Assembly: GCF_900102695.1 (NCBI RefSeq)
Contig: NZ_FMVW01000001.1
Coordinates: 806,001 to 870,000 of the forward strand
DNA length: 64,000 nt
Direction of reading: 5' to 3'
Source of the DNA: Afifella marina DSM 2698
GTDB taxonomy: Bacteria; Pseudomonadota; Alphaproteobacteria; Rhizobiales; Afifellaceae
Part shown: positions 48,119-55,529 of the stretch, piece by piece
Layout of the letters: each line of letters starts with the position of its first letter
How positions within the stretch are numbered: the stretch's first letter is position 1
Made by a program: the position numbers and the translations under genes
The notes under the pieces: model-generated
The model's input: only the letters and a program-made list of their open reading frames with translations
Told to the model about the DNA's origin: nothing
Databases searched by the model: none

Positions 48119-49183
48119 GTGAGAATTCCATTGTCCATCCGTGATGCCGGCACACGTGCTGCGCCGTTCGACGATTTTCGTGACCTTGTGAAAAACCTTC
48201 CGGCTCCGGATGCCGAGGCGCTCGCAGCCGCCCGCGCCCGCCAGGGACGTTTGACGAAGCCTCCGGGAAGCCTGGGCCGTCTGGAGCAGATCGCCATCTG
48301 GCTCGCCGGCTGGCAGGGGCAGGAAAAGCCGGTCATCGAGCGCCCGATGGTTGCCGTTTTCGCCGGCAATCACGGGGTGACGGCACGCGGTGTTGCGCCC
48401 TATCCGGCCGATGTCACGCAGCAGATGGTGGCGAATTTCCGCGCCGGCGGGGCCTCAATCAACCAGCTTTGCAACTCCTTCAATGTCGGCCTCAAGGTCT
48501 TCGAGCTCGCACTCGAACTTCCGACGGGCGATATCGCCGAGAAGGATGCGCTGAGTGAACGCGACTGCGCGGCCACCATCGCCTACGGCATGGAGGCGAT
48601 CGAGGGCATCGACCTTCTCTGCCTCGGCGAGATGGGCGTCGGCAACACGACCGTCGCTTCGGCGTTGTTCTGCGCGCTCTTCGGCGGCGAACCCGAGGAA
48701 TGGGTGGGCTACGGCTCCGGCTCGACGGGCGCGGTCCTGGAGGCCAAGATCGAGGCGGTGAGGCTCGCCTGCGAGAGAGTGAAGGGCGAAACCGATCCGC
48801 TCGTCATTCTGAAACGCGTCGGCGGCCGCGAGCTCGCCGCCATGGTGGGCGCCGTTCTGGCCGCCCGCATGCAGCGGATTCCGGTGGTGGTCGACGGCTT
48901 CGTCACGAGCGCCGCGGTTGCCGTGGTCCACAAGATGGCGCCGGGTGCCACAGATCACTGCATCTTCGCGCATCGCTCGGCGGAGAAGGCGCATCGCCAG
49001 GCCGTGGAAGCGATGGGCGGCGCGCCGCTTCTCGATCTCGGCATGCGGCTCGGCGAGGGGACAGGTGCGGCGATTGCAGCCGCCATCGTCCGTGCCGCCG
49101 CCTTCACCCATTCCAATATGGCGACCTTCGACGAGGCCGGCGTGTCGGGCGAAGGCGTCAACGTCGATCGCGCTGGCGGCTGA
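48119..49183 (+). CDS. cobT: Nicotinate-nucleotide-dimethylbenzimidazole phosphoribosyltransferase
   Basis: This 354-residue enzyme makes alpha-ribazole-5'-phosphate, the lower ligand used by CobS. It has RQGRLTKPPGSLGRLEQIA, VFAGNHGVTARGVAPYP, GEMGVGNTTVASAL, PVVVDGFVTSAAVAV and the C-terminal GMRLGEGTGAA. The start is uncertain: GTG at 48119 is given, and TTG at 48131 is an alternative; neither has a strong ribosome site. Confidence 0.95.
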   Translation: MRIPLSIRDAGTRAAPFDDFRDLVKNLPAPDAEALAAARARQGRLTKPPGSLGRLEQIAIWLAGWQGQEKPVIERPMVAVFAGNHGVTARGVAPYPADVTQQMVANFRAGGASINQLCNSFNVGLKVFELALELPTGDIAEKDALSERDCAATIAYGMEAIEGIDLLCLGEMGVGNTTVASALFCALFGGEPEEWVGYGSGSTGAVLEAKIEAVRLACERVKGETDPLVILKRVGGRELAAMVGAVLAARMQRIPVVVDGFVTSAAVAVVHKMAPGATDHCIFAHRSAEKAHRQAVEAMGGAPLLDLGMRLGEGTGAAIAAAIVRAAAFTHSNMATFDEAGVSGEGVNVDRAGG

Positions 49184-52294: not shown

Positions 52295-52783
52295 ATGGAC
52301 CGCATTGACCGCATGATCCTGTCTGTCCTGCAGGAGGATGTGACGCTTCCCGTTGCCGAGATCGCCCGGCGTGTCGGCCTGTCGACGACGCCGGCCTGGC
52401 GACGCATCCAGAAAATGGAGGAAGACGGCGTCATCAAGAAGCGGGTGGCGGTGCTCGATCCGAAATCGGTCAACGCGCATGTCACGGTCTTTGTCTTCGT
52501 GACCACCAATCAGCACAACGAGGACTGGCTTCTGCGCTTTGCCAAGATCATCTCGGATATGCCCGAAGTGGTGGAATTCTACCGGATGAGCGGGCAGGTC
52601 GATTACCTCATCAAGGTGGTCGTGCCGGACATCGCCGCCTATGACGCCTTCTACAAGCGCCTCGTCTCCAAGATCGACATCACCGACGTCTCCTCCGCCT
52701 TCGCCATGGAGAGGATCAAGGACACGACGGCCCTGCCGCTCAACTTCATGCAGCTCGACCCGCCGCAGAAGACGAAGGGGTAA
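52295..52783 (+). CDS. Lrp/AsnC-family transcriptional regulator
   Basis: This 162-residue protein has the N-terminal helix-turn-helix MDRIDRMILSVLQEDVTLPV followed by EIARRVGLSTTPAWRRIQKM, then a RAM ligand-binding domain (FVFVTTNQHNEDWLLRFAK; FYRMSGQVDYLIKVVV). It would sense an amino acid. Its 3' end overlaps the end of the radical SAM gene on the other strand by 38 bases. Confidence 0.92.
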   Translation: MDRIDRMILSVLQEDVTLPVAEIARRVGLSTTPAWRRIQKMEEDGVIKKRVAVLDPKSVNAHVTVFVFVTTNQHNEDWLLRFAKIISDMPEVVEFYRMSGQVDYLIKVVVPDIAAYDAFYKRLVSKIDITDVSSAFAMERIKDTTALPLNFMQLDPPQKTKG

Positions 52784-54779
52784 GAGGTCCGAGCGCCGGT
52801 TGTGAGACAGGCTCCGCTCGGTGCGTCAGCACGGGTGCGAGAGCCGGAAAGCTCTCCACGATCGTCTTGAGCGGCACATCCTGTGGCATGAACTCCAGGA
52901 CGAGCACGGCGTCGCGGTTCGTTTCGAGGATCGTCCCGGCATGCGTGTTCACGACGAAAAAGCGCAGCTCCGACCCTGTCTCCTTCTGCAGCGCGAACCA
53001 GGCGATGTCCCTCCGCCAGCGGGCATCTTCGTCGAGGCGGCTGTCGAGGTCGGCCAGCTTCGTGCGCAGGGCGTCACGCTCGTGTCGGGCGAGAAGGAGA
53101 AGAAGATGCTCCCTCGGAATCCAGCCGCCGTAGCGGTAGGCGCCTGTCTGTCGCTTCATCTCCGAAAAACGCTCGAGCATCCTGGTCGCGTCTGCTTGGG
53201 TGAGGCCGCTCTCCACCTCGTAATCGTAGTAGAGCTCGAGAATGCTATCGGTTTTCTCCACCACGCGGCTCACGCCGAAGGCCTCGGGTGATTTCGCGAT
53301 CGGGGCATTGTGTTCGAAGGAAAACGTCCCCGTCCCCTCCGAGTGGATGATGGCGGAGTTGTCGATGAGGAAGTGCGCCGTCTCCATGGCTTCGGCTTCC
53401 GTTTCCGTCGGGAAGCCGAAGAAGTTGAAAGTGTGGTTCCAAATGCCGGCGGCATCGGCGTCCGCGAGATTGGCGTGCATGACGGCGCGCGTGTTGTTCT
53501 TCCGCATATGCCGTTGCACGCGCTCGCTGGCGCTTTCCAGACCGATGTAGAGAGAGCGGAAGCCCGCCTCGTACATGTCGCGATAATGCTCGGCCCGGAA
53601 GAAGCGCTCGAACTTGTAAAGGCCGGTGAAGAAGTAAGTGCGTCTCGGCAATGCTGCCGGCAGCGTCTTGAAGAGTTTTGGCGGGATCGCCTCGTCATTG
53701 AGGGCGAAATGCGTCACGCCGTGACGGGCGTTGAGGCGCTCGACGTCGGCGGCGATGGCTTTCGGATCGCGCACCCGGTAGCGGTCTCCGTAGATCATGC
53801 CGTGGTAGCAGAAGGCACACTTGTCCCAGTAACATCCTCGGGCGGAGAGGAGCGGTAGCACGATGTCCGGCGAGAAATATCGGCGGAGATCGAGGTCGCC
53901 GAAATCGGGTGTCGGGATTTCCTCCATGGGAAGCTGCGGCGCGAGATCGGTCATGATGATCCGGCCGTTTTCGTAAAAGGCGATCCCGGGGGTGCGTTCA
54001 CCGCACGGATCGGTGGCCGACAGGAGACGATCGGCCGGAATTTCACCCTCGTAGCGCACCACGATATCGAAGAAGCGACCGAAGAGGGGTTGCAGGGCAT
54101 CCGCCCGGTCGAGCAGGCGCGAGAATACGCTGCCGCCAACGAGGATTGGGACGCCGGGGAAGCGCGCCTTCAAGGCGGCGCCGAGGGTGAGAGAGGGCAG
54201 GATCTGCTCGGTTCCGATCACCGAAATCCCGAAATAGCGCGGAACCTCGTCGATCTCTGCGATCTTCGAACGGACGAACGGCAGGAACGGATTGTCCTCC
54301 TCGCTCTCGCAGAAGGCGTCGACCGCGGCCGCGGAGCGGAGAACCCGCGCCGTCGACAGAGATGACGTGCCCACCTCCACCACCGGCTCGGCGACCGAGA
54401 ATGCGTAGAGGAGCCGCTTCAGCGCGGTGACGCTCTCATAGAAATCTTCCACGCGATCGAGGCAGGCGGGCGAGCGCAGGCGGTCGACCGCGGAGCGCTT
54501 TGTCTCGTAGTTGCTGAGGATGCCGAGGGCGAGATAGGCCGAGTTGCGGTAGATCTCGTTCTCTTCCGGCAGCTCGCGTATGTAGCGCATCAGCCGAGCC
54601 GAGGCCTTCGCCAGCCTGCGGCGGTCGATGAAATACTCGTAGAACTCGACGTTCCAGTCGGACTGCCGGACACGATGGCCATGGCTCTCGAGGTAGGCCT
54701 TGAGCGAAGGCGTCGAGAGAAAGGGCTGGAAGGGCGACCATTGCGGCGGGAAGATGAGGTGAAGGTCGGGTGCCGTCAT
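52746..54779 (-). CDS. Cobalamin-binding-type radical SAM enzyme, candidate peptide-modifying enzyme
   Basis: This 677-residue protein shows three parts. Residues about 1-290 contain a B12-binding-like Rossmann region (YFGISVIGTEQILPSLTLG, then VPILVGGSVFSRL); the classic DxHxxG is not seen. Residues about 300-540 form the radical SAM core. Its cluster motif is Cys316-X4-Cys321-X2-Cys324 (RGCYWDKCAFCYHG), one residue longer than canonical, followed by THFALNDEAI and SLYIGLESASERVQRHMRKN. Residues about 606-650 (FVVNTHAGTILETNRDAVLV then LEFMPQDVPLKTIVESFP) resemble a PqqD-like peptide-recognition domain. GGGAGG precedes the ATG. It follows the repeat-peptide gene by 81 bases in the same direction. 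The reaction is unknown; peptide methylation or crosslinking is inferred. Confidence 0.8.
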   Translation of the reverse strand: MTAPDLHLIFPPQWSPFQPFLSTPSLKAYLESHGHRVRQSDWNVEFYEYFIDRRRLAKASARLMRYIRELPEENEIYRNSAYLALGILSNYETKRSAVDRLRSPACLDRVEDFYESVTALKRLLYAFSVAEPVVEVGTSSLSTARVLRSAAAVDAFCESEEDNPFLPFVRSKIAEIDEVPRYFGISVIGTEQILPSLTLGAALKARFPGVPILVGGSVFSRLLDRADALQPLFGRFFDIVVRYEGEIPADRLLSATDPCGERTPGIAFYENGRIIMTDLAPQLPMEEIPTPDFGDLDLRRYFSPDIVLPLLSARGCYWDKCAFCYHGMIYGDRYRVRDPKAIAADVERLNARHGVTHFALNDEAIPPKLFKTLPAALPRRTYFFTGLYKFERFFRAEHYRDMYEAGFRSLYIGLESASERVQRHMRKNNTRAVMHANLADADAAGIWNHTFNFFGFPTETEAEAMETAHFLIDNSAIIHSEGTGTFSFEHNAPIAKSPEAFGVSRVVEKTDSILELYYDYEVESGLTQADATRMLERFSEMKRQTGAYRYGGWIPREHLLLLLARHERDALRTKLADLDSRLDEDARWRRDIAWFALQKETGSELRFFVVNTHAGTILETNRDAVLVLEFMPQDVPLKTIVESFPALAPVLTHRAEPVSQPALGPLTPSSSAAGRAA

Positions 54780-54860
54780 GGGCAGCCTCCCTGTGCCGGC
54801 GCGCCGTGCAGCACGCCGGTCCCTTTGCTGGCGAAACGAGGGGTGAAAGCCTGGCCGCGC

Positions 54861-55229
54861 CTATTCCGGCTTGGCAATGCCGCGGACGTTGCCGCCCTGG
54901 TTCTGGTTCTGATTGTCCATGACTTCGTCGCCCGGCGCGAGCAGAACAGAACGCAGGCTCTGCAAGGCTTGCGGCTTCATGGCAATGAGATCTTCCAGCT
55001 TTCCCTGGTTCTGATTCTGGTTGTCTTCGGCCGTCTCACCCATGCCGCGTCCGACGCCGATGCTGCGCAAAACTTCCGGCTTCATCTCCGCGAGAGCGGC
55101 CATGTCACCCTGGTTCTGGTTCTGGTTGTCGGCGAGCGCGAAATCATCAGGCAGGCCACCTTCGATTTGACGCATGAGTTCAGGGTGAAGCTTCTCTTTC
55201 AATTGGGTAATGAGTGCTGTCTTATCCAC
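54861..55229 (-). CDS. Three-repeat small protein, candidate multicore RiPP precursor
   Basis: This 122-residue protein has no signal peptide and no recognised family. It consists of three similar units of 35-36 residues. Each has a helical, leader-like part (KLHPELMRQI, EMKPEVLRSI, AMKPQALQSL) and ends in an identical octapeptide DNQNQNQG at residues 34-41, 69-76 and 105-112, with a short tail GNVRGIAKPE. The GTG start at 55229 has a strong GGGAGG site, and a sigma70-like promoter lies at 55288-55316. The radical SAM gene follows in the same operon. The pattern suggests a peptide with three modified cores; a structural or metal-binding repeat protein is the alternative. Confidence 0.75.
   Translation of the reverse strand: MDKTALITQLKEKLHPELMRQIEGGLPDDFALADNQNQNQGDMAALAEMKPEVLRSIGVGRGMGETAEDNQNQNQGKLEDLIAMKPQALQSLRSVLLAPGDEVMDNQNQNQGGNVRGIAKPE
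54894..55130 (-). repeat. Three near-identical 24-bp repeats coding for DNQNQNQG
   Basis: The copies lie at 55107-55130, 55002-55025 and 54894-54917. Outside the last glycine codon, the first two use identical codons for all seven residues; the third differs at a single base (AAT for AAC). Spacing is 105 and 108 bases. The intervening sequences are much more diverged. Confidence 0.95.
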
Positions 55230-55529
55230 GACACACCTCCCTCTCTCCTGAAATTCACAGAAGAACCTTCATTTCAGAAGCAGAAGTAGATTATCAACTT
55301 TAAAGGGAGGCTTCAATACGAAAAAGATGCTTCTAGCAGGCGAGATATTAGGAGGATTTTCTGAATAATGGAGAGAAAGAGTTGTGTGGGAGATCCAAAC
55401 ACTTGATCTGAAATGGGTAAAAGCCATAATGCGGCTGCGCTAAATGCAACCTTAGGGTGCTTTTGCGGCGGAAGAATGGTTAACGGACGGCAATCGCGCC
55501 GTCCGTACCGCTCTTGGCGAAACTCAGCC
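55230..55529. other. AT-rich intergenic region upstream of the repeat-peptide gene
   Basis: This is a 300-base gap between the repeat-peptide gene and the dehydrogenase gene on the same strand. Most of it (about 55250-55440) is clearly more AT-rich than the rest of the window. It holds the promoter described separately. No gene is seen in it. The part next to the dehydrogenase gene returns to normal composition. Confidence 0.7.
55288..55316 (-). promoter_or_regulatory. Sigma70-like promoter of the repeat-peptide gene
   Basis: On the minus strand, TTGAAG (55316-55311) and TAATCT (55293-55288) are separated by 17 bases, fitting TTGACA-N17-TATAAT at 4 of 6 and 3 of 6 positions; an overlapping GATAAT is also present. 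It would start transcription about 50 bases before the GTG start codon. Confidence 0.5.

Follow-up and report, generated by a model that had tools for sequence, protein, structure and literature searches.

Within the 64,000-nt stretch of DNA analysed here (the window), a precursor-like repeat peptide gene (positions 54861 to 55229, minus strand) lies upstream of a gene for a cobalamin-type radical SAM enzyme (52746 to 54779, minus strand), with 81 bp between the two ORFs. The peptide gene encodes 122 residues from a GTG start; the assignment draws on the ORF itself and on three homologues that share three cores and, in the alignment, keep the MDK start. A ribosome-binding site, AGGGAGG (55236 to 55242, minus strand), can be read from the sequence 6 nt 5′ of the start codon. 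The peptide contains three copies of the octapeptide DNQNQNQG, spaced 35 and 36 residues apart, each forming a module in which a leader-like “L..MKPE.L.SI” segment is followed by the core. All on the minus strand, the first module comprises, by alignment, a leader segment (residues 1 to 33, ending in LKEKLHPELMRQIEGGLPDDFALA; 55131 to 55229) and core 1 (residues 34 to 41; 55107 to 55130); the second, a leader-like segment that includes LAEMKPEVLRSIG (residues 42 to 68; 55026 to 55106) and core 2 (residues 69 to 76; 55002 to 55025); and the third, a leader-like segment that runs from KLEDLIAMKPQALQSLR to GDEVM (residues 77 to 104; 54918 to 55001) and core 3 (residues 105 to 112; 54894 to 54917).

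A 21-nt degenerate core motif occurred three times in the window versus 0.00 times in 100 shuffles, and a 20-nt NQNQNQG pattern was found nowhere in the 3.96-Mb genome beyond the peptide gene. The spacers of the peptide share a repeated pattern (LKEKLHPELMRQI, LAEMKPEVLRSI, and LIAMKPQALQSL), after which come a linker, acidic in most cases, and the core, an arrangement that looks like recognition segments duplicated along with the cores. Searches of the peptide against Pfam, NCBIfam, and solved structures gave no family or structure match. AlphaFold predicted, with low confidence, short helices in the spacer segments and, for most positions of the cores, uncertain coil, as would be expected for a flexible precursor. 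A possible double-glycine export site (GG, residues 24 and 25) was considered and rejected, the GG not being conserved among the homologues.

The downstream gene encodes a 677-residue enzyme, identified from its ORF, its profile matches, and orthologues 59 to 67% identical to it. Its radical SAM core (residues 313 to 471; 53367 to 53843, minus strand) matched Radical_SAM PF04055 with 57.5 bits, above the curated cut-off, and includes a [4Fe-4S] ligand motif, C-X4-C-X2-C (CYWDKCAFC, residues 316 to 324; 53808 to 53834, minus strand), which is invariant in the family and contains the cluster cysteines C316, C321, and C324. A probable B12-binding Rossmann region (residues 177 to 251; 54027 to 54251, minus strand) matched PF02310 with an E value of 5.6e-5, below the cut-off of 32.1 bits (23.4 bits in the window enzyme, 23.4 to 27.2 bits in the window family); two homologues that are distant but share its layout exceed that cut-off, with 33.4 and 39.5 bits. 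In NCBIfam, the best match was TIGR03975 (88.9 bits versus a curated 281.85) and the second best ApyD (NF050148; 75.5 bits versus a curated 750), scores so far below the curated cut-offs that the enzyme is a member of neither family. The MCR-Gln methylase profile TIGR04014 gave 47 bits against a cut-off of 360 bits. Judged by these profile comparisons, the enzyme is closest to the B12-radical-SAM RiPP C-methyltransferases. Its sequence matches among solved structures include OxsB, TsrM, TokK, and CysS, each of them a cobalamin radical SAM enzyme. No SPASM family was among the profile matches of the enzyme, the N terminus being probably of the B12 type and the C terminus probably PqqD-like instead. 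The AlphaFold model of the enzyme, built from four sequences, had a mean pLDDT of 45, too poor for judging folds.

These scores bear on the type of reaction to be expected. That the peptide is a substrate for chemistry other than methylation (a crosslink, epimerization, or an Asn/Gln side-chain or backbone rearrangement) would fit with an enzyme scoring far under all curated C-methyltransferase cut-offs and with the existence of non-methylating cobalamin-radical-SAM relatives, BchE and OxsB, whose scores are similar to those of some methylases. The two best curated families are nevertheless methyltransferases, as are the TsrM, TokK, CysS, and MCR-Gln methylase matches, and we regard such other chemistry as rather unlikely, if still to be reckoned with.

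PqqD is the prototype RiPP recognition element. Over its last ~75 residues, the enzyme resembles PqqD in the strand-strand-helix part, the third helix being absent, with the PqqD/RRE-like segment placed by hhalign to the PqqD profile at residues 605 to 643 (52851 to 52967, minus strand). This alignment was weak (score 23.9, probability 49%); in 200 column shuffles the mean was 9.9 and the maximum 15.0, none of the 200 equalling the score of the enzyme C terminus against PqqD. In sliding windows along the enzyme, the top PqqD scores were those that included the C-terminal segment, and an enzyme homologue from Rhizobium phaseoli scored 30.7 (76% probability) in the same place. A Pfam search of the enzyme returned no PqqD match. 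The enzyme C terminus is probably a divergent, C-terminally shortened recognition domain.

The genes flanking the pair in the window include no RiPP helpers; they encode an AsnC/Lrp regulator, UDG-family, GST-family, and 3-hydroxyisobutyrate dehydrogenase-like proteins, an adenine deaminase, and ABC permeases. The 3′ end of the enzyme gene overlaps that of the AsnC/Lrp-family regulator gene (52295 to 52783, plus strand) convergently, from 52746 to 52783. A CobT-type DBI phosphoribosyltransferase (PF02277) is encoded at 48119 to 49183, at a distance of 3.6 kb from the gene for the enzyme, which suggests that cobalamin is made or assembled by the host.

A pattern scan of ~85,000 species-level genomes for two DNQNQNQ/DNQNQ copies 70 to 100 bases apart found three other loci, all alphaproteobacterial: one in Ruegeria arenilitoris HKCCC1153, one in a Reyranella MAG, and one in a RIFCSP MAG that belongs to the family of the Reyranella MAG. 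Each encodes a peptide of 125 to 130 residues with three DNQNQNQG cores and, directly downstream, an orthologous enzyme, 66 to 67% identical to that of the window in the two Reyranella-family loci and 59% identical in Ruegeria. Peptide and enzyme are thus adjacent in 4/4 loci, window included. The two Reyranella-family loci have neighbours in common, the other contexts being unrelated. Because the flanks of the Ruegeria, Reyranella-family, and window loci are unrelated to one another, the data show that the peptide-enzyme pair is itself the conserved unit. In R. arenilitoris (NZ_WQHX01000001.1, ~271.1 to 273.1 kb; L084:8132-10090), the enzyme gene has an in-frame TGA (VAP*KFYF) and the three-core peptide is intact, the TGA being due to recent inactivation or else to an error in sequencing. 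Strong hairpins were seen between the genes of two homologous loci (L077:1704-1824 and L078:1085-1198; z of −3.2 and −3.3); a conserved intergenic hairpin was rejected, as it is absent in the window (z of −0.3) and in Reyranella (z of +0.9).

At the protein level, all 12 cores of the four loci are the same, although synonymous codon variants occur at all eight positions, a uniformity partly due to the scan itself for the two adjacent core copies of which it required parts; the third copy of each locus, free of that requirement, is likewise unchanged. Between the window and Ruegeria peptides, the 24/24 core residues are the same with 9 synonymous core codon changes, versus 48/98 residues outside the cores, where 51 codons differ nonsynonymously. 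Over the comparisons of the window with each homologue, the cores are 24/24 identical in every pair and the remainder matches at 48 to 64 of 98 residues (49 to 65%). At the codon level, these comparisons show purifying selection acting on the cores.

To assess linkage, enzyme and peptide queries were both run against matched sets of 54 Ruegeria-genus and 75 Reyranella-family genomes. Of these 129 genomes, 3 had both genes, 126 neither, and 0 one alone. As the genomes had been picked by the peptide, the presence of the enzyme in 3/3 peptide carriers versus 0/126 noncarriers is an independent result; the chance that three enzyme carriers match the three peptide carriers is ~1 in 350,000 (1 in C(129,3)). 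No peptide homologue was found in 60 relatives, nor any close relative of the enzyme among 397 genomes from the order and 385 from the class, the window genome excepted, and a wider family search of 395 genomes added no further enzyme. Being both rare and scattered, the system would seem to have spread by horizontal transfer, as its distribution suggests.

The same counts bear on the notion that the peptide might be an Asn/Gln repeat protein, structural or aggregating in nature, with the enzyme an unrelated gene adjacent to it by chance. NQ repeats are widespread as low-complexity sequence, and the single DNQNQNQ occurrences in viruses are of this kind; but linkage in 4/4 loci with differing surroundings, the matched presence and absence of the two genes, and a conservation that extends to the non-core modules all speak against chance adjacency, which the co-occurrence has already largely refuted and which we consider very improbable. 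An earlier note on this DNA had described a 122-residue three-repeat gene with the DNQNQNQG octapeptide 81 bases before a cobalamin-type radical SAM gene, and ORFs, residues, and gap are as it said. It had read the two genes as a candidate RiPP-type pair, a reading that gains support from the adjacency, the genome counts, and an enzyme nearest, by sequence, to the RiPP C-methyltransferases and with a probable divergent recognition domain. Two of the things that the note held would speak against that reading, homologues of the repeat protein without the enzyme and a known structural role for the repeat family, were looked for: none of the 129 matched genomes had one gene alone, all four peptide-bearing genomes have the enzyme immediately after it, and no structural family matches the peptide. 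The absence of protease, transporter, and tailoring genes that it had remarked on holds in the separate genomic settings as well.

Farther afield, distant enzyme homologues in the phylum (28 to 36% identical) had no comparable repeat peptide alongside, and plasmids yielded only enzymes 22 to 29% identical and no peptide. Scans of viral contigs found no relative of the enzyme; the 51 DNQNQNQ-bearing viral stretches were rejected, all being low-complexity or out of context. Some B12-radical SAM relatives of ~860 to 930 residues carry long TPR-like N-terminal extensions (L015:6439-9234, L016:1819-4479, L018:560-3295, L019:1046-3727, and L020:7363-9939). The R. phaseoli plasmid pRphaR744c (L021:5992-8403) encodes a B12-radical SAM enzyme of 28% identity whose PqqD-like C terminus is clearer; its gene adjoins one for an S8 peptidase and an unannotated ORF of 88 aa that contains Cys, a set that may be a further peptide system. 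On a Desulfocapsa sulfexigens plasmid (L022:1415-7677), a distant B12-radical SAM homologue is clustered with genes whose annotations read glutathione synthase, C45 family peptidase, and gamma-glutamyl-GABA hydrolase. About 1.2 kb downstream of a distant enzyme homologue is an ORF with a 28-residue tandem repeat (FGDGVA..AAFVGADPVRERFARPAW; L012:5477-5983); it is open in several frames and has the look of a GC-rich DNA repeat.

Since the peptide is always paired with the enzyme in four scattered alphaproteobacteria, it is very probably a multi-site substrate of its neighbour. We consider it probable that this gene pair constitutes a minimal RiPP-type system with several cores, in which the enzyme modifies the peptide cores, most likely by C-methylation. 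Each module would supply its own helical recognition segment of the L..MKPE.L.SI type ahead of a DNQNQNQG core that is the same in all three; the enzyme would dock the peptide, probably via its PqqD/RRE-like C-terminal segment, and act core by core, most likely through cobalamin-dependent C-methylation at unactivated Gln and/or Asn carbons. Precedents for the separate steps are the B12-radical-SAM enzyme MgmA, which methylates a Gln of methyl-coenzyme M reductase (PMC11796369), the B12-radical-SAM C-methylation of RiPP cores in polytheonamide (PMC11285071), and ApyD, an RRE-carrying B12-radical-SAM enzyme of a RiPP pathway that methylates Tyr (PMC10635010).

The product could be an intact modified intracellular protein, or it could be trimmed and exported by general host proteins. 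Over the four loci, no protease, exporter, signal sequence, or second tailoring enzyme is conserved; the modified protein may therefore stay intact in the cell. Taken further, the modified 122-aa protein would be the final product, a protein with NQ-rich strands that serves binding or assembly inside the cell and not a precursor of small peptides: nothing for cleavage or transport is conserved with it, pairing is conceivable between its three identical polar NQ strands, and the modules between the cores are conserved too. Against this, divergence is free in the spacers and the C-terminal tail and not in the cores, and the module layout resembles tandem recognition-core precursors; we hold a final product of this kind to be possible but the less expected outcome. 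A similarly tentative standing is given to the most specific form of the RiPP-type proposal, in which every core comes with a recognition segment of its own and one B12-radical SAM enzyme works iteratively along the alternating Asn-Gln strand, C-methylating it, to give a modified repeat protein that stays in the cell and not a secreted peptide.

One peptide plus one enzyme is the smallest possible RiPP-like set, and three identical test sites are built into each substrate molecule. The core lacks the residues that known radical SAM RiPP enzymes usually act on, save for the rare precedent of Gln methylation. The pair would offer a compact and directly testable way into new C-H chemistry on peptides and into recognition segments that are repeated with their cores.

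Cyanobactins and multicore graspetides also have several identical cores, sometimes with recognition segments between them, but employ proteases/cyclases or ATP-grasp ligases and not a B12-radical SAM enzyme. A literature search on the motif and on multicore radical SAM systems of minimal size brought up no match. The earlier note had likened the pair to the cyclophane peptides and proteusins. The first likeness falls away with the lack of any SPASM-type family match and the second with that of a nitrile-hydratase-like leader, the peptides tested having no Pfam or NCBIfam match. The missing SPASM match likewise sets the enzyme apart from the SPASM/twitch-type maturases of triceptides, sactipeptides, and ranthipeptides. 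Polytheonamide, a proteusin, does share an Asn-rich core and, through PoyB/PoyC, B12-radical SAM C-methylation of RiPP cores, but its single long core is served by many extra enzymes (PMC11285071). The apy pathway is similar in that ApyD, a B12-radical SAM enzyme, acts on a RiPP precursor and carries a recognition domain, as the enzyme here probably does (PMC10635010; NF050148), whereas apy clusters have an MNIO, a P450, and a methyltransferase for a Tyr-containing core, as opposed to one enzyme and three Asn/Gln cores here. With TIGR03975 (rSAM_ocin_1, RiPP maturation radical SAM C-methyltransferase), the alignment spans both the B12 and radical SAM regions, but the partners differ. MgmA (TIGR04014) is comparable in its B12-radical SAM methylation of Gln within a peptide chain, its target in contrast being one Gln in a large enzyme (PMC11796369). 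The earlier note could assign the Asn-Gln core to no named class; the system is very probably a new, rare, minimal RiPP-type variant, and at curated cut-offs it falls outside the named families tested.
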